A program made the translations under genes and the position numbers. A stretch of 64,000 bases of DNA from a virus. The stretch is from IMG/VR virus record IMGVR_UViG_3300043395_001986, positions 62,001 to 126,000 of that record, one strand, 5' to 3'. The number at the start of each line of letters is the position of its first letter. Position 1 is the stretch's first letter. Shown in pieces: positions 4,712-48,541 of this stretch. The notes below the pieces were generated by a model that saw nothing but the letters and a program-made list of their open reading frames with translations, was not told the DNA's origin and did no database searches.

Positions 4712-6106
4712 ATGATAAGTAATAATTTTTTTGATGATGTAAGATATAAACTCAATTCAGTAGGACCTGGATTTTGTTTGGCTAAATGGAAACAGGTTAC
4801 ATTACATCTACACATTGGTCACAATCATAGTTGTCACCACCCGGGTACACATAAAATTTCTGAAAGAGAAATAGCAGAAGACCCATCGCATCTTCACAAT
4901 ACTCGATTTAAAAAAGAGAGAAGAAAGGAAATGTTAGAAGGTAAAAGACCTAAAGAGTGCGATTATTGTTGGAGAGTAGAAGATAGTTCCGATGCGTTTT
5001 CCGATAGAACATTTAAATCAGCAGAACCATGGGCGTTACCATATTATAATCAAATAAAAAACCTACCAGCAGATGCGAATGTATTACCATCATATGTAGA
5101 AGTATCATTTAGTAATGCATGTAACTTTAAATGTTCATATTGTGCACCACCATTTTCAACACAATGGATGGAAGAAATTGAACAATTTGGTGCATATCCA
5201 ACTGCGGGTAAATTTAATGGATTAGAACATTTCCAATTAAGTGATAGAATGCCAATACCACAAAATCAGCACAATCCTTATGTAGAAGCGTTTTGGAAAT
5301 GGTGGCCTGAATTATATAAAGGATTACATACATTTCGTATAACTGGTGGTGAACCATTTATGCATAAAGATACATTTAAGGTATTGGATTATATTTTGGA
5401 AACACCAAATCCAAATAAAAACTTAGCATTAAGTATGAATAGTAATTTGGGAGTTCCTGATAAGTTATTCAATAAAGCAAAGGAAAAATTAAAAGAGATA
5501 AGTGATAGAGGATTGGTTAGAGAATTGATTTTATTTACATCAGTAGATACACATGGTGCACAGGCCGAATATATTAGAAATGGATTAGTATATAATCAAT
5601 TGATGGATAGAATGGATATTTTGTTAAAAGAAATACCAAGATTAACAATTATCATTATGAGTACATATAACGCATTATCTGTTCCAAAATATAAAAAATT
5701 AATTCACGAAGTATATGATTTAAAAGCATTATATGCAGATGAAAATCGTTATTATCAACAATCGGTTTTATTGGATAGTTCATATCTTCGTTGGCCATCA
5801 CATCAACATATTAAATTATTAGATAATCATTGGTCAAAAGAAATAATGGAGCAGGCACAACTTATGGATTTTTATGAGTTTAGTAGAGTTGGAGCAGGCT
5901 GTTGGGGATATAGTGATGTTGAAATTGTTAAAATGAAAAGAATAGCTGATTATATGAAATCAGTAGAAAATGAAGAAGCTATAAAATACGATAGACAAGA
6001 TTTCTATCGCTTTTTTAGCGAACATGATAGACGAAGAGGAACTGATTTTTGTAAAACATTCCCCGAATTAGAAGAATTTTATAATAAATGTAAAGAGTTA
6101 TGTTAA
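4712..6106 (+). CDS. Radical SAM protein (twitch-domain type)
   Basis: The 464-residue protein carries the 4Fe-4S/SAM motif CNFKCSYC (Cys137, Cys141, Cys144) in the context VEVSFSNACNF, followed by TGGEP at about 211-215, which binds the SAM amino group. Extra Cys and His residues precede the core (HNHSCHHPGTH around 37-47 and ECDYCWRVED around 82-91), as in twitch-domain radical SAM proteins common in environmental phages and in glycan clusters. It should generate a 5'-deoxyadenosyl radical that modifies a sugar, peptide or other small molecule. The substrate is unknown, but it sits between GT7-LamG enzymes and a lone LamG protein. The next gene starts 7 nt before its end. Confidence 0.85.
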   Translation: MISNNFFDDVRYKLNSVGPGFCLAKWKQVTLHLHIGHNHSCHHPGTHKISEREIAEDPSHLHNTRFKKERRKEMLEGKRPKECDYCWRVEDSSDAFSDRTFKSAEPWALPYYNQIKNLPADANVLPSYVEVSFSNACNFKCSYCAPPFSTQWMEEIEQFGAYPTAGKFNGLEHFQLSDRMPIPQNQHNPYVEAFWKWWPELYKGLHTFRITGGEPFMHKDTFKVLDYILETPNPNKNLALSMNSNLGVPDKLFNKAKEKLKEISDRGLVRELILFTSVDTHGAQAEYIRNGLVYNQLMDRMDILLKEIPRLTIIIMSTYNALSVPKYKKLIHEVYDLKALYADENRYYQQSVLLDSSYLRWPSHQHIKLLDNHWSKEIMEQAQLMDFYEFSRVGAGCWGYSDVEIVKMKRIADYMKSVENEEAIKYDRQDFYRFFSEHDRRRGTDFCKTFPELEEFYNKCKELC

Positions 6107-18012: not shown

Positions 18013-21000
18013 ATGAATAATTTATCCAATTTTTTAGTTGAGCAAATTTTAAAAGAAGCAAAAGAAATGCAGCCTGTGGTTGTATATTCTGGTCGTTTTC
18101 AACCATTTCATAGAGGTCACTATGCAGCATACCAAAGATTAGTATCTAAATTTGGAAGTAATAATGTATTTGTTGCATCATCAAACGCACAGGATGATAC
18201 TAAATCTCCATTTTCTTTTAAAGATAAAAAAGAGATTGCAAATAAAATGTTTGGAATTCCAACTTCTAAATTTGTACAAGTTAAAAACCCATACGCACCG
18301 GAAGAAATATTAAGTAAATTTGATAAAAAGAAAACTTATTATGTGGCAGCAGTTGGTGATAAAGATGCAAGTAGATTAAAAGGTAACTATTTTGTAAAAT
18401 ATACAAATAGTGGTGAGAAAGAAGGGTATTTGGATAAGGGATATTACTATATCATACCACCTGAACAGGATGTATTAAGTGGAACGGAAGTTAGAAACGC
18501 ATTTAAAAAAGGCACCGATAAAGATAAAAAAAAGTTTTTTACAAATGCATTTGGTAAAATGGATAAAGGAATATTTGATTTAGTTAAAAGAAAATTACAA
18601 GAAGAATTTATACCAGGCGGAAAATCAGAGGGCAAAACATTGGAAGATATTGCAAGAAAATATGCCGGTCAATATTATGATTGGAGAAATGTAATGCAGA
18701 TTGTAAAAGAAGAAATGAAAATCGGTATTAAAATTGAAATGGAACACACAACCGATATCAGAATTGCAGCCGAAATTGCAAAAGACCATTTATGGGAAGA
18801 TTTGCATTACTATACTAAACTAAAAAAGGTAGAAGAAGTTGGGATTGGAACAGGTGGTGTTACTGCACTTTACAAAGGTTACCCTGGAAAAGATGAGTTA
18901 AGAGCAAGAATGAAAAAAGTAGCGGATTATAGAAAGAAAACCGATACCGATAAAGAATATTGTTATGACCCAATAAATGAGGCAAGTTCCGATGGAACTG
19001 GATATAGTGAAGAAATTTTAAATCAGACAGTAGAAAATCCTCATACAAAACAAAAAATTAAAGTTAAAACCGCTCTTAATTATTCGGATGCTAAAGATCC
19101 AGGAATGAGAGCAGCCTATAAAGCTGCATTGGCATTAGTACAAAAGAAAGGAGCACAAAAACCAGTAGAACCAAATGGCAAACCAAAAACAGCAAAACAA
19201 GAACCAACAGGTCAAAAAGGAGCAGAAGCACCAACAACCAAATCAGCTTCTACTGAAAAACCTAAAGCCCCAACAAAAGCCGGTGACCAACAAAAAGATG
19301 AACTTCCGAAGAATGGGGTAGAACAGCCACAAGGTCAAGGTGGAGAAGAACAACCTCAACCAAATATATTTAAACCAAGCTCAAATAAAGCAGAATTAAA
19401 ACCTTATGGTGATGACACTAATTCTAAAATAAAAGTATTCAAAGGAAAATCATCAGGAGAAGAAATTAAAACTCTTTCATTTAAAGGCGGTGGATATTTG
19501 TATGGAACTATTCATAGAAATACAAAAATGGTTGATGATATTCTTAATCAAGTTAAAGCAACAATACCGGAAGAAAAGTGGAAAGATATTGTATTTGTGG
19601 GTGAAGGTGGTGCAACCGGAGATGATGGTGAGTTAGTATTTCATGATGAAATGGAATACGCAGCACCTAAATTTAAAGAAATTGGTGCATCAATTGATAC
19701 ATTTGATGGTGATGAATTGGATGTACATAATCCGGATTCCAATTTATATCAAATGCAACTTAAGGCAACAGGTCTTAGCCACTCACAAGTAAAGGCTGGA
19801 AACTGGGCAAGTATGATTGGACAGGGAGAAGGAACGGATACTATGAGTCCAGATATTTTTTTAGATGATGAAGGAAAAAAATTCTTACAAGATTCTGCCA
19901 AAGAAGCAGGATTTAAGCCAATAGAAAATTGGGAAAATCCAACCGAAGATGATAAAGATACGCTTTATAGATTATCATTTCCAGAAGATAATTCCGATAA
20001 AGAAACAAAAGTAAACGATATTCAGGTTGCATTTAATAAAGCTAGAGACCTTAATTTAATTAAAAAAACAAAAGAATTAGCATCACAGGGTAAGATACCA
20101 GTAACAATAGCAGGTGATGGGCACGTTGATTTAGTAGGAAGTGGATTGAAAGTAGCAGGAACTTCAATAGACAAAGAGCCTAAATTACAAGATGTACCGG
20201 AAGATTTTAAAAAGCAAGTTGCCACAAAAATAAACGATTTGCAAAAGATGTTTGATGATGATAAGAAAAATGGAGTAAAAAGAGAAGTATATAATTTATG
20301 TCAAATTTCAGTACCTGGAACAAACTTATACTGCGATGATAACAAAAATATAAAAAGAGATGCAATGCCACAATTCAAAGGAAAACCAATTCCAGGAACC
20401 CCGGCAGCTGAAATGGAATTAAATAAAGATGGTGAAGTTGATACTGAACCAATGTTCAAAAAAATGTTAGCAGATAAGGGAATCAAAGTTACAAATGAAG
20501 AAGTACCTGTTGAATCATTAAAAGCAACACAAAACGAATTAGTTGGACAAAAGGTATTGGGTATGGAAGGAGCATTAGAAGAAAATCCAGAAAATCCAAA
20601 TATAACAGCACCTATATACGTTTCAAATGATGGATATGTGGTTGATGGACATCATAGATGGGCAGCGGTTACATCTTATAACCTTAAACACCCAGATAAA
20701 CCAATACCAATGAAAGTAATGATTATTGATGATACCATTGATAATATTATTCCAATGGCAAATAAATTTGCAGAGGATATGGGTATTGCAGCAAAATCGG
20801 GTTCAGATAAAACAAAAACAGAAAGCTATATTTCATTATCGGATTATTTAGTTAAAACTCTTTTAGAAGATATTAAAAATGAAGATATCCTATTAGAAGG
20901 TGGTGCATATGGACATATGAATCATCCATTTGACATTCAAATGAATCTTACATTTGGAGATTTAAAAAATATTATTAATAATGCATTGGATGGTAATTTG

Positions 21001-22095
21001 GGTGTAGTTAGAGAAAAAACAGATGGTCAAGCCTTAGCAATCAGTTGGAAGAATGGTAGATTAATTGCAGCAAGAAATAAATCACATTTGTCAAATGGTG
21101 GTGCAAATGCATTAGATGCATCTGCGTTATCTGATAAATTTAGTGGTAGAGGACCTTTAGCTGATGCATATAATTTTGCAATGAAAGATTTGGCAAGTGC
21201 AATAAGTTCATTGGGCGAAAAAGATAGAAAAGCAATATTCAAAGATGGTTCTGCGTTTTGTAATCTAGAAGTAATATATCCTAAAAATGCAAATGTAATT
21301 CCATATGGACAAAACTTATTAGTGTTCCATAATGTAGTTGAATATGATATAAAAGGAAACGCAATTGGTGTGGTAAAGGGTGGTGAAAGTAAATTAGCTA
21401 ATATGATTAAAAAAGTAAATGCTGATGTACAATCAAAATATGTAATACAAGGACCACCTATTACAAAATTACCAAAAGATGAAAAATTGAGTTCTCAAAA
21501 AAGTAGATTTAATTCTATGTTATCTAAATTACAATCTGAATTTAAACTATCGGATAGTGATGGTGTAGCAGATTACCACTTTGCTTGGTGGATGAAATTT
21601 GTAAAAGATTCAAAGAAAAAATTATCTCAATTAGAAAAAGAAGGATTAGCAAGAAGATGGGCTTTTGATAACAAATCATTTACAATCAAATCAATCGTTG
21701 ATGAAGATGCTAGAAAATGGGCAGATGGTGTAGATAAAGATGCGAAGGATAAAATTATGAAAGGAAATCTTCGTAAGTTTGAGGATATCTTTTTAGGAGT
21801 AGGCGCGGAAGTTCTTTCATTTATGAGCTCAGTATTAACCGCACAACCAGATAAGGCATTACAATTAATAAAAACATCATTGGATAGTACAATATCACAA
21901 ATCCGCTCACAGGGCTCTGCTGAACAAATTAAAAGATTAGAAAAAGAATTATCTAGATTAAATTCAATTGGTGGATTTGATAAATTAGTTCCAAACGAAG
22001 GATTGGTATTTTTCTACAATGGAAATACATATAAATTAACTGGAACATTTGCTCCTTTAAATCAAATACTAGGAATTTTTAAGTTTGGCAGATAA
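18013..22095 (+). CDS. Giant fusion: NMNAT-like, DUF5661-like, ParB-like and RNA-ligase-like domains
   Basis: The 1360-residue protein joins several units. A cytidylyltransferase-fold domain has VVYSGRFQPFHRGHY (23-37) and VLSGTEVRNAF (154-164), as in nicotinamide-nucleotide adenylyltransferases. A DUF5661-like part (about 200-272) has IEMEHTTDIRIAAEIAKDHL. A Gln/Pro/Lys-rich linker covers 375-455. An unassigned domain (463-640) contains VFVGEGGATGDDGE. A ParB-like part (826-910) has YVVDGHHRWAA. The C-terminus (963-1345) resembles nucleotidyltransferases of the ligase fold, with EKTDG (1001-1005, Lys1002 as likely nucleophile) and FCNLEVIYP. An amphipathic leader starts the protein (SNFLVEQILKEA), and a similar helix (SLSDYLVKTLLED, 941-953) precedes the ligase part, followed by LLE/GG at 960-964, a good site for a gp21-type protease. 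This could be a packaged polyprotein that is ejected with the DNA. Confidence 0.7.
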   Translation: MNNLSNFLVEQILKEAKEMQPVVVYSGRFQPFHRGHYAAYQRLVSKFGSNNVFVASSNAQDDTKSPFSFKDKKEIANKMFGIPTSKFVQVKNPYAPEEILSKFDKKKTYYVAAVGDKDASRLKGNYFVKYTNSGEKEGYLDKGYYYIIPPEQDVLSGTEVRNAFKKGTDKDKKKFFTNAFGKMDKGIFDLVKRKLQEEFIPGGKSEGKTLEDIARKYAGQYYDWRNVMQIVKEEMKIGIKIEMEHTTDIRIAAEIAKDHLWEDLHYYTKLKKVEEVGIGTGGVTALYKGYPGKDELRARMKKVADYRKKTDTDKEYCYDPINEASSDGTGYSEEILNQTVENPHTKQKIKVKTALNYSDAKDPGMRAAYKAALALVQKKGAQKPVEPNGKPKTAKQEPTGQKGAEAPTTKSASTEKPKAPTKAGDQQKDELPKNGVEQPQGQGGEEQPQPNIFKPSSNKAELKPYGDDTNSKIKVFKGKSSGEEIKTLSFKGGGYLYGTIHRNTKMVDDILNQVKATIPEEKWKDIVFVGEGGATGDDGELVFHDEMEYAAPKFKEIGASIDTFDGDELDVHNPDSNLYQMQLKATGLSHSQVKAGNWASMIGQGEGTDTMSPDIFLDDEGKKFLQDSAKEAGFKPIENWENPTEDDKDTLYRLSFPEDNSDKETKVNDIQVAFNKARDLNLIKKTKELASQGKIPVTIAGDGHVDLVGSGLKVAGTSIDKEPKLQDVPEDFKKQVATKINDLQKMFDDDKKNGVKREVYNLCQISVPGTNLYCDDNKNIKRDAMPQFKGKPIPGTPAAEMELNKDGEVDTEPMFKKMLADKGIKVTNEEVPVESLKATQNELVGQKVLGMEGALEENPENPNITAPIYVSNDGYVVDGHHRWAAVTSYNLKHPDKPIPMKVMIIDDTIDNIIPMANKFAEDMGIAAKSGSDKTKTESYISLSDYLVKTLLEDIKNEDILLEGGAYGHMNHPFDIQMNLTFGDLKNIINNALDGNLGVVREKTDGQALAISWKNGRLIAARNKSHLSNGGANALDASALSDKFSGRGPLADAYNFAMKDLASAISSLGEKDRKAIFKDGSAFCNLEVIYPKNANVIPYGQNLLVFHNVVEYDIKGNAIGVVKGGESKLANMIKKVNADVQSKYVIQGPPITKLPKDEKLSSQKSRFNSMLSKLQSEFKLSDSDGVADYHFAWWMKFVKDSKKKLSQLEKEGLARRWAFDNKSFTIKSIVDEDARKWADGVDKDAKDKIMKGNLRKFEDIFLGVGAEVLSFMSSVLTAQPDKALQLIKTSLDSTISQIRSQGSAEQIKRLEKELSRLNSIGGFDKLVPNEGLVFFYNGNTYKLTGTFAPLNQILGIFKFGR

Positions 22096-23454: not shown

Positions 23455-25059
23455 ATGGCTAAAACCCTTAAAGAAGTAATTAGGGAGGAATATGGTAAGT
23501 GTGCGATAGACCCTATTTACTTTATGAGAAAATATTGTAAGATTCAACATCCAATTAAAGGTAAAATTCCATTTGACCTTTACCCATTTCAGGAGGATGT
23601 TTTATCCGATTTCAAAGACAATAGATTTAATATCGTATTGAAATCTCGTCAGCTAGGTATATCTACCTTGGTGGCGGGATTTTCGCTTTGGAAAATGATT
23701 TTTAATAATGACTTTAACGTGTTGGTTATTGCAACAAAACAAGAAGTTGCAAAAAACCTTGTACTTAAAGTTAGAGTTATGAATGAGTTTCTTCCATCTT
23801 GGTTAAAAGTAACTGAACAGGAAGATAACAAACTTTCACTTCGTTTTACAAATGGTTCTCAAATCAAAGCAATTTCATCTAAACCAGATGCAGGACGTTC
23901 AGAAGCGCTATCATTACTTGTATTTGATGAGGCAGCATTCATTGACTATATTGATGATATTTGGACTTCAGCACAATCAACTCTTTCAACGGGTGGTAGT
24001 TGTATTGCACTTTCTACTCCTAATGGTGTGGGTAACTGGTTCCATCAGATGTGGGTAGGTGCTGAAAATCACGAGAATTTATTTAATACAATAAAACTCC
24101 ATTGGACGGTTCATCCTGAAAGAGACCAAAGTTGGAGAGATGAACAAGAAACACAATTAGGAAAAAAAGGAGCGGCACAAGAATGTGATTGTGACTTTAT
24201 TTCAACAGGTGATACTGTCATAGATTCAGAAATTCTTATTAAATATTTAGATAACCATATTCAGGAACCAATAGAGAAAAAAGGATTTGATGGAAACTAT
24301 TGGATATGGAAAAGACCAGATTACACTAAAAATTATTTATTGTGTGCGGACGTAGCGAGAGGCGATGGTGCGGATTTTTCTGCATTTCATGTAATAGAAT
24401 TGGATAGTTGTGAACAAGTTGCCGAATATAAAGGGAAAATAGAACCAACTGAATTTGGTAATTTTTTAGTAATGGCAGCAACCGAATACAATGATGCTTT
24501 ATTGGTTATAGATAATGCAAATATTGGATGGGCAACAATACAAAGAGTTTTGGATAGAGATTATAAAAATTTATTCTATTCAAATGATGATATAAAATAT
24601 GTTGATATAGATACACAATGGACAAATAAATGGTATCGTAAAGAAAAGAATATGACACCTGGGTTTGGTATATCATCAAAAACACGTCCTTTGATTGTTT
24701 CTAAAATAGATAACTATATGAGAGAAACATCTGTTATTTTACATAGTAAAAGATTGATAGATGAATTTTTTGTATTCATATGGGGACCAGCAAGTAGAGC
24801 AGAAGCAATGCGAGGATATAATGATGACCTTATATTTGCATTAGGTATTGGATTGTGGATTAGAGATACTGCATTAAGATTAAAACAAGAAGGAATTGAT
24901 TTAACAAGACAGGCTTTAAATGGCATAACACAAACCAAATATGAAATGTTTTATTCATCAACAGATTTTCAGGAAAATCCATACAAAATGAAAATAGGAG
25001 GACAAGAAGGAGAAGAAGATTTAATGTGGCTAATTGATAGGTCCTCAATTCGTAAATAA
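23455..25059 (+). CDS. terL: Terminase large subunit (gp17-like)
   Basis: The 534-residue packaging motor has an ATPase domain with a Walker A variant VLKSRQLGIST (61-71), Walker B LLVFDEAAF (154-162) and a coupling motif ALSTPNG (185-191). A nuclease domain of the RNase H fold follows, with first Asp299 in LLCADVARGDG, a second acidic residue in LLVIDNANIGW and a third in GYNDDLIFALGIG. It uses ATP to move concatemeric DNA into the prohead and cuts it. It is slightly shorter than T4 gp17 (610). Portal, protease, scaffold and capsid genes lie downstream in T4-like order. Confidence 0.95.
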   Translation: MAKTLKEVIREEYGKCAIDPIYFMRKYCKIQHPIKGKIPFDLYPFQEDVLSDFKDNRFNIVLKSRQLGISTLVAGFSLWKMIFNNDFNVLVIATKQEVAKNLVLKVRVMNEFLPSWLKVTEQEDNKLSLRFTNGSQIKAISSKPDAGRSEALSLLVFDEAAFIDYIDDIWTSAQSTLSTGGSCIALSTPNGVGNWFHQMWVGAENHENLFNTIKLHWTVHPERDQSWRDEQETQLGKKGAAQECDCDFISTGDTVIDSEILIKYLDNHIQEPIEKKGFDGNYWIWKRPDYTKNYLLCADVARGDGADFSAFHVIELDSCEQVAEYKGKIEPTEFGNFLVMAATEYNDALLVIDNANIGWATIQRVLDRDYKNLFYSNDDIKYVDIDTQWTNKWYRKEKNMTPGFGISSKTRPLIVSKIDNYMRETSVILHSKRLIDEFFVFIWGPASRAEAMRGYNDDLIFALGIGLWIRDTALRLKQEGIDLTRQALNGITQTKYEMFYSSTDFQENPYKMKIGGQEGEEDLMWLIDRSSIRK

Positions 25060-29916: not shown

Positions 29917-30501
29917 ATGAATAAGAATTTAATCATTGAACATAGATTATTCGAAGGAGTAGTTGAAGAAAAAGATGGTTCTTTTTTGGTTAAAGGTGTC
30001 TTACAAAGAGCAGATGCTGAAAACCAAAATGGTAGAGTATATCCATTTCCTATATTACAAAGAGAAGCTACAAAATACGAAACTTTAATAAATGAGCGTA
30101 GAGCATTGGGTGAATTAGACCATCCAGATTCTGCGGTTATTAATTTAAAAAATGTTTCCCATAATGTAAGAGAAATGAAATGGGATGGTAAAGATTTAGT
30201 TGGAGTAGTTGAAGTATTATCAACACCAGCAGGAAATATTTTAAAAGAATTATTTAAAAATAATATTCGTTTAGGTATTAGTAGTAGAGGATTGGGGTCT
30301 GTAAAACCTATTGGAGAAAACAAAGTAGTAGTTCAAGAAGATTTTGAATTAATTGGATTTGATTTTGTATCTAATCCATCAACACATGGTGCATTTTTAT
30401 CACCTGTAAATGAAAGCGTTAACAAAGGAATAGTAGATGAGTGTGGTAAGTGGTGCAAGGCACAAGATTTAATGAGAAACATTATAGAAGAATTAAACTA
30501 A
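29917..30501 (+). CDS. gp21: Prohead core protein protease (gp21-like)
   Basis: The 194-residue protein has the gp21 protease pattern: GRVYPFPILQRE (39-50), ALGELDHP with His69, VGVVEVLSTPAGN and LGISSRGLGSV with Ser122/Ser123 as nucleophile candidates, then DFELIGFDFVSNPSTHGAFL. It is close in length to T4 gp21 (212). It should cleave scaffold, capsid and internal proteins after Glu in I/L-x-E sites during head maturation. Its own N-terminus contains LFE/G (11-14), a likely self-cleavage site. Confidence 0.92.
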   Translation: MNKNLIIEHRLFEGVVEEKDGSFLVKGVLQRADAENQNGRVYPFPILQREATKYETLINERRALGELDHPDSAVINLKNVSHNVREMKWDGKDLVGVVEVLSTPAGNILKELFKNNIRLGISSRGLGSVKPIGENKVVVQEDFELIGFDFVSNPSTHGAFLSPVNESVNKGIVDECGKWCKAQDLMRNIIEELN

Positions 30502-33592: not shown

Positions 33593-35230
33593 ATGGCACA
33601 ATTCGATTTATCAAAATTGATGGAAGGCAAAAACCCACAATCAGTAATGCTTGAGCAAACTAGAGGTTTGAGAAGCAAGTGGGAAAAAACTGGCCTTTTA
33701 GAAGGTATCGGAACTGCAACTGAAAAAGCAGGTATGGCGGTACTTTTAGAAAACCAAGCAAAGCAATTGTTGGATGAAGCAAACTATACTTCAACAACAG
33801 CTGGTAACGAAGAATGGTCTGGAGTGGCTTTACCACTTGTAAGACGTATCTTCGGTGAAATTGCAGCAAAAGAATTCGTTTCAGTACAACCAATGAACTT
33901 ACCTTCAGGTTTGATTTTCTATATGGATTTCAAATATGGTTCTAACCAACCAGGTAACCCATCTTTCCAAAACTCATCATTATTCGGTAGTGGTGGTTTA
34001 GCAGGTAAAGATTCTTTATCTCCATCAGGTGAAAAATTAGGTTCTACTCAAACTGCACAAGGTGGTTTATATGGTGCAGGTAGATTCGGATACACTTTAA
34101 ACGATACATTCTCATCTTCAGCAGCTACTTTATGGTCTACATCTTCAGTATCTTTCGCAGATGTTAACTTTGATGCTAATTTCTTAGCAACTGGTTCATT
34201 AAAGAAAGTGACTGTAGGTATTCCTTCAGACGCTGATTACAATGGTATCAGAAGTTTCCAAATTGGTGGTGCACAAATCACTTCAGGATACTATCCACAA
34301 TTTACAAAATTAGATGGTACAACTTTATCATTCATCGTTCCTGCTATCACTGGTTTATTAACTGGTTCATTAAGATTGGACTACACTAAGCAACCAACTG
34401 CAGCAAACAGAGGTGATTTCGAAGAGAAAGGTACAAGATTTAATGATGTAAATGATGGTGATGCATTAGACATCCCAACAATCGACCTTGAATTAAAATC
34501 AGAGGCTATCGTTGCTAAAACTCGTAAGTTGAAAGCAGTATGGACTCCTGAATTAGCTCAAGACTTAAACGCTTACCATTCAATTGATGCAGAAGCTGAA
34601 TTAACTTCTATGTTATCTGAATACATCTCTTTAGAGATTGATTTGGAAATTTTAGAAATGTTACAGCAAAATGCATTGACTACAGAAAGATGGTCAGCTA
34701 GAGTTGGTTATGAGTACGACCAAGCAACAAGTGCATTCGTAGCTGATTCTTCAACAAATGCAGCATCTGCATACCAAAAGAACACTTGGTTCCAAACTTT
34801 AGGTGTTAAAATCAATAAGGTATCTAACAAGATTCACCAATTGACTTTAAGAGGTGGTGCTAACTTTATCGTTGCATCTCCAGATGTATGTACTATTTTA
34901 GAATCAATTCCAGGATTTGCAGTAACTGCTGATAAAGACGCTAAGCAATTCTCTGCTGGTGTTTCTGCAGTAGGTAACATCGCAAACAGATACACTGTCT
35001 ACAAAAATCCTTACATGACTGAAAACGTAATGTTAATGGGTTACAAAGGAAATAACTTCCTTGAGACTGGTGCTGTTTATTCTCCATATGTACCATTGGT
35101 ATTAACTCCATTGGTGTACGATCCAGATAACTTCACTCCAAGAAGAGGAGTTATGACTCGTTACGCTAAGAAGATGGTAAGACCAGAATTCTATGGTAAG
35201 ATTGTTATCGCTGATATGGATAAAATCTAA
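33593..35230 (+). CDS. gp23: Major capsid protein (gp23-like)
   Basis: The 545-residue protein has the HK97-fold T4-like signature: SVMLEQTRGLRSKWEKTGLLEG (17-38), PLVRRIFGEIAAKEFVSVQPMNLPSG, YHSIDAEAELTSMLSEYISLEID, and a late block NPYMTENVMLMGYKGNNF followed by GAVYSPYVPL. LLE/G at 35-38 is a plausible maturation cleavage site for gp21. It forms the hexamers of the shell. A strong terminator lies directly downstream, as expected for the most abundant late mRNA. Codon use is richer in C-ending codons (AAC, TTC, ATC) than the glycan genes, consistent with high expression. Confidence 0.95.
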   Translation: MAQFDLSKLMEGKNPQSVMLEQTRGLRSKWEKTGLLEGIGTATEKAGMAVLLENQAKQLLDEANYTSTTAGNEEWSGVALPLVRRIFGEIAAKEFVSVQPMNLPSGLIFYMDFKYGSNQPGNPSFQNSSLFGSGGLAGKDSLSPSGEKLGSTQTAQGGLYGAGRFGYTLNDTFSSSAATLWSTSSVSFADVNFDANFLATGSLKKVTVGIPSDADYNGIRSFQIGGAQITSGYYPQFTKLDGTTLSFIVPAITGLLTGSLRLDYTKQPTAANRGDFEEKGTRFNDVNDGDALDIPTIDLELKSEAIVAKTRKLKAVWTPELAQDLNAYHSIDAEAELTSMLSEYISLEIDLEILEMLQQNALTTERWSARVGYEYDQATSAFVADSSTNAASAYQKNTWFQTLGVKINKVSNKIHQLTLRGGANFIVASPDVCTILESIPGFAVTADKDAKQFSAGVSAVGNIANRYTVYKNPYMTENVMLMGYKGNNFLETGAVYSPYVPLVLTPLVYDPDNFTPRRGVMTRYAKKMVRPEFYGKIVIADMDKI

Positions 35231-38859: not shown

Positions 38860-40950
38860 ATGGGAAAAGTTAGAATTTCAGAATTACCTTATTTAGTAAG
38901 TGCATCTGCAGATGTAATACTACCTGTTGTTGATAATGGTGTAACATATAAAACAGATTTAAATGTTTTAGAAACCGCAATGGTACATGTTTTATCATCA
39001 TCAATTGATAATAGATTGGATTTTTTAGAAACTTTTAGCGCATCGTTTCCTCAATTTAGCTCATCTATTGATATTAAAATAGAAGCCGCAACAAATGAAC
39101 AAAGTTTAGCACATTTAATAACTACATCTTCATTTAATTCATTTACACAATCATATTATAATGTAAGTGCTTCATTTGATAGTAGAATACAAAATCATAT
39201 ATCGTCAACTGCATATATAAGTGAATCATATACAGAATTTGTTTATAGTTATCATTCCGAAAGTTCTAGTTTTAGTAGCAGAATAGATGCGGCAACAAAT
39301 GAGCAATATATAGCAGGATTATTACTAACAGCATCGTACAATACCGATAGTACTTCATTTGACAGTAGATTAGATGGATTAGAAAGTTTTAGTAGTTCAG
39401 CAGATAATAGATATGTTTTGAGTGGGAGCATTACTCAAACAACTTGGGATAATATTGCAAATAAACCAAATGATATTATAAGTTCATCAACACAAATTTC
39501 TGATTTGGGATTTGTAACAGGTTCATATACTACTATAACTTCATTCAATAATTTAACACAATCATTTAATCAAATATCACAATCATTTACGACAGTTAGT
39601 GGTAGTTTTGGCGAAATAGATTTTAGTGGAATTAACTCAATTACAGCTTCATATTTAGAATTTACTCAATCATATTATAGTGAAAGTGCTTCATTTGATA
39701 GTAGAATTATTAGTGGTAGTGCAGTAGCAGGAACAATAAGTGGTAGTTCTCAAATAGCAGCATTGGGATATGCAACTACATCATCCGTAACTACAATAAG
39801 TGCATCAGCATGGGGAGCATTCCAAAGTGCAAGTTCTTATAGTAGTTCTTTACAAACTTCAATTACAACATTAAGTAGTAGTGTAAACACATTAAGTTCT
39901 TCAGTAGATAGTAGATTTGATACATTAGAAGCAACTATCATAAGTGGAAGTCCAAATTATATACAAGTATTAGGTAATCAAAGAAGTGGTATATCAGTTG
40001 ATGGAACATCAATTATTAGTGGTAGTATTACTACGACCGGTAATCCCGTTCAAATTATGGTGACCGGTGATGCAAACCCAACATCAACAACAGGTCAATG
40101 GTGTAGACTTCAATTATATAGAAATAGTAGTGCAATTGGTAATATTATTCAAGTAGAATCTTCTGCACAAAATGAAAATGTTCCGTATTGTTTAAATGTA
40201 ATAGATACACCATCAGCAGGAACATATGAATATTCTCTTAAAATAGCATCACCACAAGGAACTTGGGCATTTGGTGAAGCAACGGGTCCTCTTTTAACCG
40301 CAGTAGAATTAAAAACAAATACAAACTTACCATCTACAAATAATACATTTACTGAAACAAACACATTTACTGGTGCAACCAATTTAAGTGGTTCGGTAAG
40401 AATTGGAGCCGGTGCAGGATTTGAAGGTGGTGAACTACAATTAGCATACGCACCATCGGGTTCTACTTTAACAGGTAGTGCAGTTAGTGTGGATATTTAT
40501 CAAAATAGATTAAGAATATTTGAAGGTGGTGGTAATGCTAGAGGTGCACATTTGGATTTAAGTAAATTACCGGAAGGTGTTGCAGGTGAATTGATATGGA
40601 AAACAAGTGGGTTTGTAAACGCAGGAACATTCTTAACATTAGATAATTTAAAAGTATCAGTAACAACAGGTGGTAGTAGAGGATTGAGTGTGGGAGCAGT
40701 ATCAACAAATTTTACCGCTAACATATCGGGTTGGTTTGGATATACCGGTGGTGGGGGTGGTGCATCCGCATATAACGTATCATACACAACAACCGGGTCA
40801 AATTCGGCATTTGGGTGGTCGTTTGGAACAGAAGGTGATGGTTCGAATTATATTATAAACGATAAAACCAATAATAGAGTTTATCGTGTAAGTTTAATGA
40901 TTGGTGCGGGATACAATAATAATTTCATTTCAATAGAAAGATTATATTAA
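38860..40950 (+). CDS. Tail fibre protein 1, coiled repeats plus C-terminal globular head
   Basis: The 696-residue protein starts with VRISELPYLVSASADVILPVVDNG, a fibre N-terminus seen in other phages. A long Ser/Asn/Thr-rich section (about 45-380) follows with repeats of the type SSSIDNRLDFLETF, SYYNVSASFDSRI and SASAWGAFQSASSYSSS, compatible with a trimeric coiled coil. The end (about 385-696) holds beta-rich, Gly-rich domains, including YTGGGGGASAYNVSYTT, which probably bind the receptor. The shared SAWGAFQSAS block recurs in three later fibres. Confidence 0.75.
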   Translation: MGKVRISELPYLVSASADVILPVVDNGVTYKTDLNVLETAMVHVLSSSIDNRLDFLETFSASFPQFSSSIDIKIEAATNEQSLAHLITTSSFNSFTQSYYNVSASFDSRIQNHISSTAYISESYTEFVYSYHSESSSFSSRIDAATNEQYIAGLLLTASYNTDSTSFDSRLDGLESFSSSADNRYVLSGSITQTTWDNIANKPNDIISSSTQISDLGFVTGSYTTITSFNNLTQSFNQISQSFTTVSGSFGEIDFSGINSITASYLEFTQSYYSESASFDSRIISGSAVAGTISGSSQIAALGYATTSSVTTISASAWGAFQSASSYSSSLQTSITTLSSSVNTLSSSVDSRFDTLEATIISGSPNYIQVLGNQRSGISVDGTSIISGSITTTGNPVQIMVTGDANPTSTTGQWCRLQLYRNSSAIGNIIQVESSAQNENVPYCLNVIDTPSAGTYEYSLKIASPQGTWAFGEATGPLLTAVELKTNTNLPSTNNTFTETNTFTGATNLSGSVRIGAGAGFEGGELQLAYAPSGSTLTGSAVSVDIYQNRLRIFEGGGNARGAHLDLSKLPEGVAGELIWKTSGFVNAGTFLTLDNLKVSVTTGGSRGLSVGAVSTNFTANISGWFGYTGGGGGASAYNVSYTTTGSNSAFGWSFGTEGDGSNYIINDKTNNRVYRVSLMIGAGYNNNFISIERLY

Positions 40951-40952
40951 CG

Positions 40953-40961
40953 ATATTTATA
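40953..40961 (+). promoter_or_regulatory. ATATTTATA motif 13 nt before 40966
   Basis: A near-leaderless spacing to the ATG, as at 18000, 31148 and 41241. Confidence 0.4.
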
Positions 40962-40965
40962 CCTA

Positions 40966-41241
40966 ATGGCAACTTTAATAAGATTAAAACAAATAGAAAG
41001 TGGTTCTGCATTACAAACATCTGCAGATTTGGGAAATAATGTTTCACAATCAATAATAAACATTGTTAGTAGTTCTATTGCAGGTGTATTACCAGATGGT
41101 ATAGTATCTTCATCTGCACAAATAGAATTATTATCAGCAAGTGGATATAATGCATTTACTGAATCATTGAATATTACATTTGCAACAGATTACGAAGTAT
41201 TTGTTACTTCATCATTAATTTTAGACCAGGGAGAATTTTAA
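40966..41241 (+). CDS. Small fibre-related protein with D-x-G-E-F end
   Basis: A 91-residue protein: a short attachment-like start (ATLIRLKQIESGSALQTSADLG), one Ser/Ala coil unit, the motif SSSAQIELLSASGY, and the end ATDYEVFVTSSLILDQGEF. The final ATDYEV, VTSSL and DxGEF also close the next gene. It looks like a minimal fibre: attachment plus end piece without the long repeat section. Confidence 0.6.
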   Translation: MATLIRLKQIESGSALQTSADLGNNVSQSIINIVSSSIAGVLPDGIVSSSAQIELLSASGYNAFTESLNITFATDYEVFVTSSLILDQGEF

Positions 41242-41251
41242 TATTTATATA
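41241..41251 (+). promoter_or_regulatory. ATATTTATATA motif 15 nt before 41256
   Basis: It starts at the last base of the preceding stop codon and is close to the next ATG. Confidence 0.4.
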
Positions 41252-41255
41252 ACAA

Positions 41256-41912
41256 ATGAGTCAAATTTTAAAACTAAAACGCGGTAATTTAGAAAGAATA
41301 TCCATTGTAACGGGTTCGTTAACAAAGGGTGAAATGATTATTGCTTCTTCTTCCGCAAATATAAATTCTATAAATGGAAGTTCAATTGTATTTTCAACAA
41401 CAGAAAATGGACGTATTGAAGCCGTAAATAGAATAATCAAAAGTAATACCGCTCCAAACATATTTAGTTCATCGGTATACGGCAATACAATAGATGGTGT
41501 TCCTTATTTTGATAGTGGAAGTGGTACTCTTTATTTATTAGGTGCAGATGGAAATGAAGCAATTTCTTTAATTGGTAACATTCAACCATTGAGTTCATCG
41601 GTTAACACTAGAATTTCTCAATTAGAAAGTTTTAGTTCTTCATTAACTACAACATTTGCAACAGATATAGAATTAGCAGCAGTTTCTCAATCGGTATCAG
41701 CATCGGAAGCGGCAGTAAGTGCTTCAATTGCAAATTCTTTATCTAATATTTACACTTTCTTTCCAGCAGGTGTTATAAGTAGTTCACAACAAGTTATAGA
41801 TATTTTCAACGCTAACTTCAGTAGTTCAATGGCAACGACGGTTGATAATGTATTTGCAACGGATTATGAAGTTGAGGTCACATCTTCATTGATGGATGGC
41901 GGTGAATGGTAA
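41256..41912 (+). CDS. Short fibre protein with ordered N-terminal module
   Basis: A 218-residue protein. Residues 1-105 (LKLKRGNLERISIVTGSLTKGE, NGSSIVFSTTENGRI, VPYFDSGSGTLYLLGADGNEA) are homologous to the first 105 residues of the 1592-residue fibre that follows. The rest is a short Ser/Ala coil, and the end is VFATDYEVEVTSSLMDGGEW. It may be a short version of the same fibre or a tip/adaptor subunit. Confidence 0.65.
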   Translation: MSQILKLKRGNLERISIVTGSLTKGEMIIASSSANINSINGSSIVFSTTENGRIEAVNRIIKSNTAPNIFSSSVYGNTIDGVPYFDSGSGTLYLLGADGNEAISLIGNIQPLSSSVNTRISQLESFSSSLTTTFATDIELAAVSQSVSASEAAVSASIANSLSNIYTFFPAGVISSSQQVIDIFNANFSSSMATTVDNVFATDYEVEVTSSLMDGGEW

Positions 41913-41964
41913 AAAAAAATAATTAAAATTTATTAATATTAAACAAATTTAAAAATCATTTCTC

Positions 41965-41974
41965 ATATTTATAT
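41965..41974 (+). promoter_or_regulatory. ATATTTATAT motif before the 1592-residue fibre gene
   Basis: It is 34 nt from the ATG at 41999. An AAAGGAG lies at 41979-41985, but 13 nt from the ATG, which is far for an SD. Confidence 0.45.
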
Positions 41975-41998
41975 GGGTAAAGGAGTAACTGAACTAAT

Positions 41999-44900
41999 AT
42001 GGCACAACAAATATTGAATAAACGTGGTAGTTTAGACAGACTATCAGCAAACACCGGCTCAGCACAAAAAGGAGAAATCTTAATTGCAACCGGCTCTAGT
42101 AAATTAAATAATGTAACAAACGGACAAGGTCTTGTTTTTGCAGCAGTAGAAAGTGGTTCGATTGTAGCCGCTAACAGAATATTGACAGGAAATACACCTC
42201 AAATATTCTCTGCATCTCAATACGGGCATTTAATGGACGGAGTTCCTTTTTATGCTAGTAGTAGCAAAACATTGTACTTATTGGGAGCAGATGGTAACAC
42301 TGCAATAGATTTAAGTGGTAACATCTCTGATTTCAGTTCTTCGGTAAGTTCTTCATTTGCAAGTTTAAGTGCATCCGTAGCTTCCGTTACGGGAGATTTC
42401 AGTTCATCAGTAGCAACTTCATTTAGTGCTAGTGCAGCAAGTGTAGCAGCATTAAGTGCATCAATCCATACAACTATTTTTGATTTTGGTGGATTGAGTT
42501 CATCAATTGAACAATCTATTTCAGCAAGTTCTGCAAAAGCAGCTTCTGATTTACATTCATATAGTGCATCAGCAGCAACAACTGATAGTGCAAGTGCAGC
42601 ATCAATTGCAGCATTAAGTGCAAGTGTGGCAAGTGTTACAGGTGACTTCAGTAGTTCAGTAGCAACTTCATTTTCTGCAAGTGCAGCTTCTCAAAATAAT
42701 TTAAGTGCTTCGGTAGCAACTTCATTTAGTGCAAGTGCCGCTTCTCAAAATGATTTAAGTAGTTCGGTAGCAACAACAATTAGTAATTTAAGTTCTTCAA
42801 TTGCAACAACAGATTCAGCGAGTGCAGCTTACGCAGCATCTCAATTGAATTCAGTAAGTGGTGCGGTAGCAACAACTATTAATAATGTAAGTGGTGCGTT
42901 TGCAACATCAACTTCTGCAAGTAATGCAGCAATTGCTTCATTGAGTGCAAGTGTAGCAAGTGTAACAGGAGATTTCAGTTCATCAGTAGCAACTTCATTT
43001 TCTGCAAGTACAGCTTCTCAAAATAATTTAAGTGCTTCATTAGCAACTACAATTAGTGCAAGTTCGGCAACGGCAGCATCTGATAATTTTAATTTAAGTA
43101 GTTCGGTAGCAACAACAATTAGTAATTTAAGTTCTTCTATTGCAACAACTGATAGTGCAAGTGCAGCTTCTCAAAATGATTTAAGTAGTTCGGTAGCAAC
43201 AACAATTAGTAATTTAAGTTCTTCAATAGCAACAACTGATTCTGCATCTAAAGCCGAATATACATCATTTAGTGCAAGTGCAGCATCTCAATTTAATACA
43301 TTTAGTTCTTCGCAAGCATCAGTAAATGCAACTTACGCAACAACTGGTTCAAATACATTCGTTGGAACCGAAGTAATTAGTGGTTCATTATATATTACAA
43401 ATAATTTAGTAGTATATGGTTCTTCTTCGGTTCAAAATGTAACAGCAAGTGCAGTATCAATTGGTACTAACACTGTCGTTTTAAATACAGCAAATCCTGC
43501 AATTAGATTTGGTGGTATACAAGTAATTGATTCTGGTTCTTCTCAAGCAACCGGTTCATTACTTTGGGATTCTGAAAATAATGTTTGGTTATATGCTAAT
43601 CCAGTTGGAGCAGGATATGGTTCAGCTCGTTTAATTGCAGGACCTCAAAACACTGGTTCATTAGGTGAAGAGATTGGTTTATCAACAACATATGTTCCAG
43701 TAGCATTAGGTGATGACCATATTGGTGATTCAAACATTAAAGTTGTTGGTAACGAAGTAACAATCGAAGCTGGTAATTTATATGTAGAAGGTGCTTTAAG
43801 TGCTTCAACTATAACTGGTATAGGAAATGTAGCAGACTTTAGTAGTTCAATTAGTGCATCAATTGCATCAATTAATACAAATTTAGGTAGTGGTGGTTCA
43901 TTAGGAACGAGAGTAGCAAATTTAGAAACTATCTCATCTTCTTATTTAGCATTTACACAATCATATTATAGTGATAGTTCATCATTTGATACAAGAATTA
44001 GTGCAAGTAAAGCAGAATACACATCATTCTCTGCAAGTGCAGCAAGTGATTTAAATAATGTAAGTTCTAGTGTAGCAACTTCATTCTCTGCAAGTGTAGC
44101 ATCTCAATTGGAGTTATCCGCGAGTATTGCAACGACCGATTCCGCAAGTGCAGCATATGCAGCATCACAATTATTAAATGTAAGTGGAGCATTTGCAACT
44201 TCTACTTCTGCAAGTAACGCAAGTATAGCAAGTTTAAGTGCATCCGTAGCTTCTGTTACGGGAGATTTCAGTAGTAGTGTAGCAACTTCATTTAGTTCGA
44301 GCAATGCAAATGTAACTTCAATTAGTGGAGCATTTGCAACTTCATTATCTGCAAGTAATGCAAATGTAACTTCAATTAGTGGAGCATTTGCAACTTCTAC
44401 TTCTGCAAGTAATGCAGCTATTGAAGCGTTAAGTGCAAGTGTAGCAAGTACAACTGGTAACTTTAGTTCTTCAGTTGCAGGTAGATTAAATGTAATAGAA
44501 ACAACATATGCAACAACTGGTTCAAATGTATTTCATGGTGACCAAACATTAACCGGTTCATTCTCAATGACGGGTACTGCAAACTTCAATAATGCAGTAG
44601 CAGTTAATGATTCAAATATGAACTTGGGTAATAGTTCTTCATTGAATTTAACCGGTGGTTCTTCAATTTATGTAGCGGGTGTAGGTGTAATTAGTGGTAG
44701 TATCGTAGGTATAGGTAATGTAAGTGCGTATTCTGCATCAGTAGATAGTAGATTTAGTGCAAGTGCATTTGAATTATCAATATTATCAGCAAGTGTAGCA
44801 TCAGTAGGTGGTACATTCAGTTCATCTGTTGCAACTACAATTTCTAATTTAAGTTCATCAATAGCAACAGACTTTAGTGCAAGTGCGGCTTATGCAGCAT

Positions 44901-46777
44901 CTCAATTAAGTTCTGTAAGTGGTGCGGTAGCAACTTCATTAAGTGCAAGTAAAGCAGAATACACAGCATTCTCTGCAAGTTCAGCAACAGCATTAAATAA
45001 TTTAAGTTCTTCAGTAGCATCTGATTTAAACACTTTAAGTTCATCTATATATCAAACAGATGCAACTCAAAGTAATAATATTTCAATTGTAAGTGCAAGT
45101 GCATGGGGAGCATTTCAAAGTGCAAGTTCATATAGTGGAAGTGCAGCAACCACCTTAAATAACTTCAGTTCATCGGTAGCAACAGACTTTAGTGCGAGCC
45201 AAGCGGCACAAAATCAAATAATATCAGCTTCTCAATATGATGTGACAGTATTAAGTTCATCTGTTGCAACTTCTTTAAGTGCAAGTGCAGCAAACGTAAC
45301 TAATATAAGTTCATCATTTGCAAGTAATATAAACACTTTAAGTGCATCAATATATCAAACAGATGCAACTCAAAGTAACGCAATAAATGCAAATTCTCAA
45401 AGTTTTGCAACTTCTTTAAGTGCAAGTGCAGCAAGTGTAACTGCATTAAGTTCTTCGGTAGCATCTGATTTAAATTCAGTAAGTGGTGCAGTAGCAACTT
45501 CTTTAAGTGCAAGTAAAGCAGAATACACATCATTTAGTGCAAGTGCAGCAAGCAATTTAAATAGTGTAAGTGGAGCATTTGCAACTTCTACATCAGCAAG
45601 TAATGCAGCTATTGCAGCGTTAAGTGCAAGTGTAGCAAGTACAACTGGTGATTTCAGTAGTTCAGTAGCAACTCAATTTAGTGCAAGTGCAGCAAGTGTA
45701 ACTTCATTAAGTTCTTCAGTAGCATCTGATTTAAATAATTTAAGTTCTTCATTAGTAACTTCAATTTCTGCAAGTAATGCAAATGAAGCAGTATGGAGTG
45801 CATCAATAGCAGGTAGAGCAACTAAATTAGAAGCATCTCAATCGGCATTTGATACGGCATTCACTTTAAGTGGTTCAAGTGTAACTGTCAAAGGAAATTT
45901 AGTAGTTAATGGTACAACTACGACCGTTAATTCTACAACTATTGAATTGGGCGACAACATCATCAGTTTAAATGGTACAACTGCAGCATTCGGTGGTATT
46001 CAAATAAATGACCAATTAGATGGTTCGAAAGTAAGTGGTTCATTATTATGGAACGCACAAGATGATTATTGGATAGCGGGTAAGAGTGGTAGTGAAGCAA
46101 AAATATTAGTGGCAGTAGGTGATAATGTAGTAAGTTCATCAGCACAAATAACATTAAGTTCTACAACAGGATTTAGTTCATTTGATACCGCAATTTCAAC
46201 TTCATTCTCTGCAAGTAATGCAAGTATATCATCTTTATCTGCAAGTGTAGCAAGTGTAACTGGCGACTTTAGTTCATCTGTTGCAACTTCATTTAGTGCT
46301 AGTAATGCAAGTATTGCAGCATTAAGTGCGAGTGTAGCAAGTGTAACCGGAGATTTCAGTAGTAGTGTAGCAACTTCGTTTAGTGCAAGTGCAGCATCAC
46401 AAACAGCATTAAGTTCTTCAGTAGCAACCACTATTAGTAATTTAAGTTCTTCAGTAGCGACTTCATTCTCTGCTAGTTACTTTGAAATTGCAAATAATAG
46501 TTCATCATTTGCAACTTCAGTATCAGCATCAAATGCAAGTATAGCAAGTTTAAGTGCAAGTGTAGCAAGTGTAACGGGAGATTTCAGTTCATCAGTAGCA
46601 ACTTCGTTTAGTGCAAGTGCATTTAATTTAGAAGCATTAAGTGCATCAATATACTTAACTGACGCTACTCAAAGTACCGATATAACAAATAATAGTGCAT
46701 CTTTTGCAACCGCAATAAGTTCAAGTAATTACAGAATTACAAACTTGGAGTTAGTAATTGATGGAGGTTCTTTCTAA
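41999..46777 (+). CDS. Giant Ser/Ala-repeat tail fibre (1592 residues)
   Basis: The N-terminal 110 residues (LNKRGSLDRLSANTGSAQKGE, VPFYASSSKTLYLLGADGN) are a module shared with the gene before it. The next 1450 residues are mostly repeats built from SASVASVTGDFSSSVATSF (seven exact copies and three variants) and units such as SASAASQNDLSSSVATTISN, consistent with a very long trimeric coiled rod. Two globular modules interrupt it: about 440-560 (GSLYITNNLVVYGSS, NPAIRFGGIQVIDSG) and about 1285-1375 (VTVKGNLVVNGTTTTVNS). The end is LELVIDGGSF. It probably forms a long side or tail fibre. Confidence 0.8.
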   Translation: MAQQILNKRGSLDRLSANTGSAQKGEILIATGSSKLNNVTNGQGLVFAAVESGSIVAANRILTGNTPQIFSASQYGHLMDGVPFYASSSKTLYLLGADGNTAIDLSGNISDFSSSVSSSFASLSASVASVTGDFSSSVATSFSASAASVAALSASIHTTIFDFGGLSSSIEQSISASSAKAASDLHSYSASAATTDSASAASIAALSASVASVTGDFSSSVATSFSASAASQNNLSASVATSFSASAASQNDLSSSVATTISNLSSSIATTDSASAAYAASQLNSVSGAVATTINNVSGAFATSTSASNAAIASLSASVASVTGDFSSSVATSFSASTASQNNLSASLATTISASSATAASDNFNLSSSVATTISNLSSSIATTDSASAASQNDLSSSVATTISNLSSSIATTDSASKAEYTSFSASAASQFNTFSSSQASVNATYATTGSNTFVGTEVISGSLYITNNLVVYGSSSVQNVTASAVSIGTNTVVLNTANPAIRFGGIQVIDSGSSQATGSLLWDSENNVWLYANPVGAGYGSARLIAGPQNTGSLGEEIGLSTTYVPVALGDDHIGDSNIKVVGNEVTIEAGNLYVEGALSASTITGIGNVADFSSSISASIASINTNLGSGGSLGTRVANLETISSSYLAFTQSYYSDSSSFDTRISASKAEYTSFSASAASDLNNVSSSVATSFSASVASQLELSASIATTDSASAAYAASQLLNVSGAFATSTSASNASIASLSASVASVTGDFSSSVATSFSSSNANVTSISGAFATSLSASNANVTSISGAFATSTSASNAAIEALSASVASTTGNFSSSVAGRLNVIETTYATTGSNVFHGDQTLTGSFSMTGTANFNNAVAVNDSNMNLGNSSSLNLTGGSSIYVAGVGVISGSIVGIGNVSAYSASVDSRFSASAFELSILSASVASVGGTFSSSVATTISNLSSSIATDFSASAAYAASQLSSVSGAVATSLSASKAEYTAFSASSATALNNLSSSVASDLNTLSSSIYQTDATQSNNISIVSASAWGAFQSASSYSGSAATTLNNFSSSVATDFSASQAAQNQIISASQYDVTVLSSSVATSLSASAANVTNISSSFASNINTLSASIYQTDATQSNAINANSQSFATSLSASAASVTALSSSVASDLNSVSGAVATSLSASKAEYTSFSASAASNLNSVSGAFATSTSASNAAIAALSASVASTTGDFSSSVATQFSASAASVTSLSSSVASDLNNLSSSLVTSISASNANEAVWSASIAGRATKLEASQSAFDTAFTLSGSSVTVKGNLVVNGTTTTVNSTTIELGDNIISLNGTTAAFGGIQINDQLDGSKVSGSLLWNAQDDYWIAGKSGSEAKILVAVGDNVVSSSAQITLSSTTGFSSFDTAISTSFSASNASISSLSASVASVTGDFSSSVATSFSASNASIAALSASVASVTGDFSSSVATSFSASAASQTALSSSVATTISNLSSSVATSFSASYFEIANNSSSFATSVSASNASIASLSASVASVTGDFSSSVATSFSASAFNLEALSASIYLTDATQSTDITNNSASFATAISSSNYRITNLELVIDGGSF
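42340..46720 (+). repeat. Tandem and dispersed coding repeats of the giant fibre
   Basis: Degenerate 57- to 90-nt units that code for SASVASVTGDFSSSVATSF and SASAAS-type segments. Good copies begin near 42365, 42620, 42945, 44235, 46235, 46320 and 46550. Copies differ at synonymous positions, so they are not a recent assembly artefact. They allow length change by recombination. Confidence 0.8.
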
Positions 46778-46790
46778 TATAACAAAGGAA

Positions 46791-46796
46791 AAAGGA
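46791..46796 (+). promoter_or_regulatory. SD-like AAAGGA before the 205-residue fibre gene
   Basis: AAAGGA lies 10 nt before the ATG at 46807, with a second AAAGGA just upstream. Most genes in the window have no such site. Confidence 0.4.
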
Positions 46797-46806
46797 TAAT
46801 AAAAAT

Positions 46807-47424: not shown

Positions 47425-47442
47425 TAAAATAAAAATCGCACA

Positions 47443-47916: not shown

Positions 47917-47936
47917 TCTTTTTATTTTAAATAACA

Positions 47937-47945
47937 ATATTTATA
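47937..47945 (+). promoter_or_regulatory. ATATTTATA motif immediately upstream of a terminator
   Basis: This copy is oddly placed: the hairpin at 47945-47969 follows at once, and the next ATG (48004) is 67 nt away. Confidence 0.3.
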
Positions 47946-47969
47946 AAGGTACTATATAGTACCTTTTTT
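47945..47969 (+). terminator. Rho-independent terminator
   Basis: AAAGGTACTATATAGTACCTTT is a perfect palindrome (stem of about nine pairs with a TATA loop), followed by TTTT and C. It separates the 47443 gene from the next fibre gene. Confidence 0.85.
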
Positions 47970-48540: not shown

Positions 48541-48541
48541 C

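Follow-up and report, generated by a model that had tools for sequence, protein, structure and literature searches.

Why does a large T4-related phage encode, beside its head genes, one long protein in which domains of disparate activity alternate with sites resembling those cut by a prohead protease? The open reading frame (ORF) in question lies in a window of 64,000 nucleotides, positions 62001–126000 of the 237,307-base virus record IMGVR_UViG_3300043395_001986, and runs for 1360 residues with zero internal stops (18013–22095, Table 1). The first-pass annotation, made from the sequence alone, had described a one-frame fusion with four motifs and two leaders, and all of these were found where it had placed them: GRFQPFHRGH at residues 27–36, IEMEHTTD at 241–248, VVDGHHRWAA at 876–885, EKTDG at 1001–1005 (with Lys1002), the N-terminal leader, and LSDYLVKTLLED of the second leader at residues 942–953, followed by LLE962/GG at 960–964. 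The protein is probably the precursor of a polyvalent payload that would be packaged in the head by means of T4-type leaders, cleaved by the prohead protease and injected.

In a region that otherwise varies, no feature is better conserved than the predicted cut site ahead of the ligase-like part. [LIVM]xE/GG stood ahead of the C-terminal domain in 83 of 84 loci of a first set (24 of 25 distinct upstream contexts) and at the start of this domain in 159 of 160 loci of a larger set (34 of 35 distinct contexts). Positions −9 to −20 before the domain were highly variable, and a second [IVL]xE was present at −8 to −6 in 24 of the 35 contexts. A motif that is kept while positions −9 to −20 vary behaves like a protease site, which is not obviously true of a remnant of the fold. 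Only four strict [LIVMF]xE/[AGS] sites occur in the 1360 residues (at 15, 323, 531 and 962), three of them (15, 323 and 962) at module borders.

In T4, gp21 cleaves behind [L/I]xE, and a stretch of 10 residues from the internal protein IPIII is enough for head targeting (PMC9026906). The short N-terminal leader of the window protein, MNNLSNFLVEQILKE/A, ends in such a motif before Ala16, as T4-type capsid-targeting sequences do, and its relatives follow the pattern M..L[SA].[FY]LVE.[IF]L..E/A. The internal leader was the top match to this N-terminal leader in the whole protein, scoring 26 against 12 for the next non-overlapping segment (37 of 1000 shuffles reached 26); in a relative of 84% identity (L006), the corresponding match of NSLSNFLVESILME/A with NSLSDYLAKEIIKE/G scored 37 against 16, a score reached by none of 1000 shuffles. 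As for gp21-type substrates, the genome encodes a cognate Peptidase_S77, and the predicted mature starts bear consensus sites. The gp23-like capsid protein has three LxE sites in its N-terminal region (LLE37, LLE53 and LLDE62/A), invariant across 81 sequences and including both LLE/G and LLDE/A. The gene also lies among late/head genes, as do those of polyvalent proteins: the terminase gene was 0.7–3.3 kb downstream in 84 of 88 loci, and in the window a gp20-like portal gene follows as well, along with the terminase, protease and capsid genes.

Stand-alone relatives of the modules carry leaders of their own. In LR756500, a separate ligase-like gene starts MKFLKSYEEFLNENLILE/GG and a DUF5661 protein starts MEFVKTYLEFINEQ; a separate NMNAT-like protein starts MRITDIITEA, and separate ParB-like proteins start MIKLKSLLKEAEEV or similar. 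T4 IPII and IPIII start MKTYQEFIAEA. The window leader shares only the general pattern of KTYQEFIAE, whereas the leaders of stand-alone relatives are clearly alike (KSYEEFLNE, KTYLEFINE). One such relative was detected in virions. ORF101 of Dickeya phage LIMEstone1, a “confirmed structural protein” in GenBank (17.30 kDa), matched the ParB-like module of the window protein by BLASTP (37% identity over 76 residues, E 9e-14), and by mass it corresponds to the 17.31-kDa virion protein numbered 102, which was identified from five peptides with 35.57% coverage (PMC3296691 Table 2). The proposal made from the window alone, of a polyprotein bearing leaders of the T4 type and sites for a prohead protease, is strengthened by the site, the gp21-type protease in the cluster and the stand-alone leaders, packaging and cleavage being predicted from sequence.

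To examine the borders of the middle modules, homologous segments were compared among 48 proteins; their edges gave 168 distinct contexts, with the C-terminal junction excluded, and were set against 100 nulls. [LIVMF]xE/[AGS] was present at 23 of the 168 (13.7%, with 7.4% expected) and [IVLM][NKST]E/[AGS] at 9.5% (3.4% expected), both above all 100 nulls; patterns with D for E were depleted, and Asp or Lys versions were not enriched. A first estimate of this enrichment was inflated by redundancy; after de-duplication and without the C-terminal junction, it was 1.8–2.8-fold, still beyond all nulls. Some, not most, of the middle borders are candidate cut sites on this evidence.

These figures bear on another explanation, that a polyvalent protein is packaged and injected whole, like the virion RNA polymerase of N4, which is packaged uncut (PMC5512222). 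The xE motifs would then reflect the composition of Glu/Ser-rich linkers, or cuts made in the host by the zincin-type peptidases of some relatives. An E[AGS] control did rise 1.34-fold in the redundant set, the linkers are Glu-rich and some relatives have HExxH peptidase cassettes, but the D and K controls were not enriched, the C-terminal hydrophobic-x-Glu/Gly site is near-invariant though the sequence further upstream varies, and no HExxH peptidase (zincin) module was found in the window protein. Injection of the uncut chain is considered unlikely.

The three modules ahead of the C-terminal domain that the first-pass annotation had named were right at the superfamily level. The NMNAT-like domain passed the Pfam gathering cut-off of PF01467 CTP_transf_like (E 1.6e-5, 25.6 against 21 bits), and a profile of the NMNAT-like domains of 19 relatives matched archaeal-type NMNATs best in the PDB (E 4e-6 to 7e-6). 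PF18905 DUF5661 was cleared with 41.4 against 27 bits. The ParB-like part matched phrog_2859 (E 1.1e-18), and its AlphaFold model matched sulfiredoxin 1xw4 with a Foldseek probability of 0.99 and ParB-N 5k5d with 0.95; in relative L003, ParB_N was matched (E 0.0011).

Covalent nucleotidyltransferases (ligases and capping enzymes) carry motifs I, Ia, III, IV and V, and the invariant residues of the C-terminal domain match this order. In 30 sequences, with relatives down to 35% identity, E39, K40 (Lys1002), D42, G43, R59, E124, E367, G368 and K379 were invariant, following the KxDG, Arg, Glu, EG(V/I/L)V, Lys arrangement that T4 RNA ligase 2 and its superfamily also keep; the window domain differs from these in reaching no family profile and in having large helical insertions between the motifs. 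Pfam had no family for it (PF09414, E 0.028 in one member). Its AlphaFold (AF2) model, folded from an input from which rows of annotated phage records were left out, was of middling confidence (predicted local distance difference test, pLDDT, 73.8), and the top Foldseek match of this model in the PDB, T4 Rnl2, was non-significant (E 0.43, probability 0.12). Homology to T4 Rnl2 was also tried by profile comparison with hhalign and was rejected as not significant (E 0.12). A protein of phage MIJ3, VOH53881, aligned over motifs I–III (32% identity, single-pair E 5.7e-4, probability 29.5%), which is suggestive only. Because of the lack of a Pfam family, the middling model and the non-significant T4 Rnl2 match, the domain is called “ligase-like” and not a ligase. 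Of the earlier assignment, the invariant motifs stand and the family membership is tentative; the structure prediction that it had called for supported the ParB-like module and gave a non-significant top match for this one. The domain was found in more than 400 viral contigs by domain scan and in at least 589 candidate viral contigs by alignment query, but in only 3 of 50,697 annotated phage records. A separate RNA ligase (PF09414) was not found elsewhere in the genome.

NMNAT-like and ligase-like domains occurred in one chain in 97 ORFs of 644–1980 aa. An isolate, Microcystis phage Mel-JY01, encodes a short NMNAT/ligase form of 640 aa, in which the cut is predicted at INNNIIAE/GG. Most of these had constant ends, and the middle, usually of about 30–1380 aa, changed completely in length and content, its cassettes (DUF5661, ParB-like, HExxH peptidases, Zn-ribbon-like pieces and others) being present, absent or reordered. 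A phrog_87 metallo-protease was found in 6 of 41 relatives (HExxH example, TLAHELVHLKQR), and a small cassette, GKFKNKKVxVKDIGxDxxGMPTINGKxATTFR, recurred in the middle of relatives. In two divergent members (L087 and L208), the NMNAT-like domain was preceded by a poly(A) polymerase/CCA-adding head (E 3.5e-31 and 1.5e-29), accompanied in L087 by an HD domain.

Such free swapping of middles, with catalytic motifs (GRFQP..H; EK.DG, E, EG, K) that change little or not at all even between distant relatives, fits a payload. It speaks, as do cassettes that are plainly enzymes (PolyA_pol, HD), against a structural or core (scaffold-like) protein with degenerate enzyme-like domains that would serve head assembly and not injection. 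The gene does adjoin those of terminase and portal, and DarA of P1, a polyvalent-type protein, acts in head morphogenesis (PMC12810830), yet a scaffold role seems improbable enough to be given little weight.

The payload reading can be set out in steps. T4-type leaders, N-terminal and internal, would bring the polyprotein into the prohead core, where the gp21-type protease would cut after Glu at [L/I]xE sites and strip the leader. A cut at 962 would free at least the C-terminal ligase-like enzyme (963–1360) from the remainder, and a further cut may follow 323. The pieces would be stored in the head, injected with the DNA and active at the start of infection, and swapping of cassettes between constant ends would change the payload but keep packaging and processing. 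The likely jobs of the modules are guesses: the NMNAT-like domain may remake NAD or a related dinucleotide, the ParB/sulfiredoxin-fold module may be an NTP-dependent nuclease or nucleotidase, and the ligase-like domain may seal RNA or adenylylate a target. From the NMNAT-like and ligase-like domains in nearly all members, the CCA-adding-type head in two and a weak RegB-like match in one, our guess is that the functions lean to nucleotide and RNA-end chemistry. A bolder version is offered tentatively: that this is a cartridge system whose ends are fixed and whose middle can be exchanged, in which any cassette placed between the ends would be packaged, released by the prohead protease and injected, and in which the C-terminal enzyme would be a new covalent nucleotidyltransferase family, possibly sealing RNA at the moment of infection together with cassettes for RNA or NAD repair such as the CCA-adding and NMNAT-like ones.

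Several observations weigh against the payload reading. A large clade (L007–L039) has no N-terminal leader, the window protein and its near relative alone show a clear internal leader, and LR756508 (L003) lacks the site at the start of the ligase-like domain. Strict site 531 falls within a folded module, and with a strict site at only about 14% of unique edges, many borders are probably uncut, which may leave several modules joined. For the ligase fold, the support consists of motifs and weak matches. Virion evidence from mass spectrometry is confined to the stand-alone ParB-like relative. As to NAD, the NMNAT-like domain has in common with the NadM-type phage NMN adenylyltransferases (PMC9503650) the GRFQPFHxGH and SGTxxR motifs and the profile match to archaeal-type NMNAT structures, but it falls far under the NCBIfam NMNAT equivalog cut-offs (28.7 against 449 and 27.1 against 127 bits) and has no Nudix fusion, and no NadV/NAPRTase partner for NAD salvage was found in the virus record. 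Since every phage with NadM is reported to carry NadV as well (PMC9503650), this absence counts against a simple NAD-salvage role, and the action on NAD or RNA ends that the first-pass annotation had suggested is kept as tentative.

A genome-wide excess of [LIVMF]xE/[AGS] near N-termini was looked for and not found (11 of 200 proteins at residues 6–25, against 16–20 in later bins); gp21, gp22, gp23 and the polyprotein are among the few carriers. That the protein is a cytosolic multifunctional enzyme of infection which is never packaged, its leaders being ordinary helices, would suit the leaderless clade and the confinement of the virion evidence, but it is very improbable in view of the leader, the site, the position in the head gene cluster, the ParB-like relative detected in virions, and the rarity of N-terminal sites in a genome where head proteins are among their carriers.

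Table 1. Features of the polyprotein gene and its neighbours in the window
Feature	Position	Strand	Basis
Polyprotein ORF, 1360 aa, ATG start	18013..22095	+	ORF call/translation; full-length relatives L006 (84%), L041 (61%)
N-terminal capsid-targeting-type leader MNNLSNFLVEQILKE, predicted cut after Glu15 (ILKE/A)	18013..18057	+	Motif position, relatives
NMNAT-like adenylyl/cytidylyltransferase domain, residues 19–197; GRFQPFHRGH and SGTEVR; ends KLQE/E	18067..18603	+	PF01467; PDB profile
DUF5661 module, about residues 201–275	18613..18837	+	PF18905, E 1.8e-10
Predicted internal site PINE323/AS	18970..18981	+	IKE/AS, IDE/AS, VKE/AS ahead of same cassette in relatives
Small recurring cassette, residues 324–376 (GxGY...NPxTxxxxKVxxALNY)	18982..19140	+	Recurrence in relatives
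Low-complexity P/K/Q/E-rich linker, residues 377–470	19141..19422	+	By inspection
GTxH module, residues 471–712; invariant GxxH, FxxEGG, GxxH	19423..20148	+	Alignment A5; AF2 pLDDT about 90
ParB/sulfiredoxin-fold module, about residues 730–930; VVDGHHRWAA	20200..20802	+	phrog_2859; Foldseek
Second, internal leader ISLSDYLVKTLLE, residues 940–952	20830..20868	+	Match to N-terminal leader
Predicted cut site ILLE962/GG	20890..20904	+	[LIVM]xE/G in 159/160 loci, 34/35 unique contexts
C-terminal ligase-like domain, residues 963–1360 (398 residues); EK1002TDG, ARNK, LEVIYP, EGLVF, YKLTG	20899..22092	+	A1/A3 invariant columns
Terminase large subunit, gp17-like	23455..25059	+	PF03237
Prohead protease, gp21-like (Peptidase_S77), candidate processing enzyme	29917..30501	+	PF03420, E 2e-24
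Major capsid protein, gp23-like	33593..35230	+	PF07068, E 9.8e-78

The first-pass list of modules overlooked the GTxH module, the small cassette that follows INE323/A and, above all, the exchange of middles among relatives. No family match to the GTxH module was found in Pfam, by PDB profile search or by Foldseek, and a TraB/ChaN/EreA-like reading of residues 471–712, made by eye, was unsupported by the same three. A literature search on DUF5661 found no publication. A copy of the small cassette (residues 327–375 of the polyprotein) ends another protein of the same genome (L197, 15461–16384; G000, about 180960–181883), which also has an IKE/A site near its N-terminus and a HAD-type DFDDT phosphatase-like domain (PF11019). 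A small protein at L197 14851–15144, MTRKQLKEFVRKSLIE/SGVIKERYTLKEEGG..., has a leader-like N-terminus and belongs to no Pfam family.

Further arrangements were seen among the relatives. A second set of polyproteins of up to about 1800 aa (L096, L097, L098, L104 and L106–L110) had GTxH and ParB-like modules and no ligase-like domain, with internal leader-like segments (e.g. MKIESLIKEIISEIKLE/A) and no terminase within the fetched stretch. At L094 1213–1223, L095 about 4988–4999 and L100 about 4976–4987, the ParB-like ORF ends ...GAAAAAAAAAAGTAG and the GTxH module resumes in the −1 frame, possibly by programmed frameshift or slippage, or through a homopolymer sequencing error. A mid cassette of L038 (residues 732–797 of the scanned stretch) weakly matched T4 RegB endoribonuclease (E 0.0032). 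A contig binned as Bacillus (L209, 2392–4440) joins the ligase-like domain to another kind of nucleotidyltransferase of the HxGH type (GSFKPMTGGH), and LEE/GG again stands ahead of the ligase-like domain. In the window itself, positions 41999–46777 encode a 1592-aa protein made nearly wholly of SSVATSFSASxAS-type repeats, and several similar Ser/Ala-rich repeat proteins lie within 38860–54825.

Polyvalent proteins and capsid-targeting leaders are each already known. With the polyvalent proteins (Iyer et al. 2017, PMC5512222), the window protein shares many unrelated enzymatic or binding domains in one large chain, late/head genes, predicted injection and ParB/sulfiredoxin-fold domains, and its relatives share HExxH peptidases as well. 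It differs in its constant NMNAT-like and ligase-like ends around a variable middle, and its predicted processing relies on T4-type leaders, [L/I]xE sites and a protease of the gp21 type acting in trans rather than chiefly on built-in zincins. When the text of that survey was searched, NMNAT did not occur in it, and the only ligases were separate RNA ligases. T4 IPI–III and Alt (PMC9026906, PMC3012670) likewise have a short N-terminal leader ending in [L/I]xE/, a gp21-type protease and diverse payloads behind a conserved targeting element, but T4 uses one leader per small protein, whereas here several modules share a chain, with a leader and cut site also internal. The head proteins of SPN3US and phiKZ resemble the proposed payload as ejected proteins of large phages with a prohead protease cutting after Glu; according to the available part of PMC10052503, 13 of 14 sites serve to remove N-terminal propeptides, and separation of several mature enzymes is not reported there. 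A literature search found neither a leader-plus-cassette polyprotein matured in trans by a prohead protease nor the unnamed ligase-like family.

If the payload reading is true, T4-like head maturation would do more than trim single leaders: it would turn one chain into several injected enzymes, resembling the polyprotein processing of RNA viruses. The variable middle would then amount to a catalogue of counter-defence enzymes that act early, each recognizable in the sequence by its place between fixed ends and protease sites. Given how many contigs carry the C-terminal domain, how few annotated records do and the lack of a Pfam family for it, a common enzyme of early infection may have gone unnamed.

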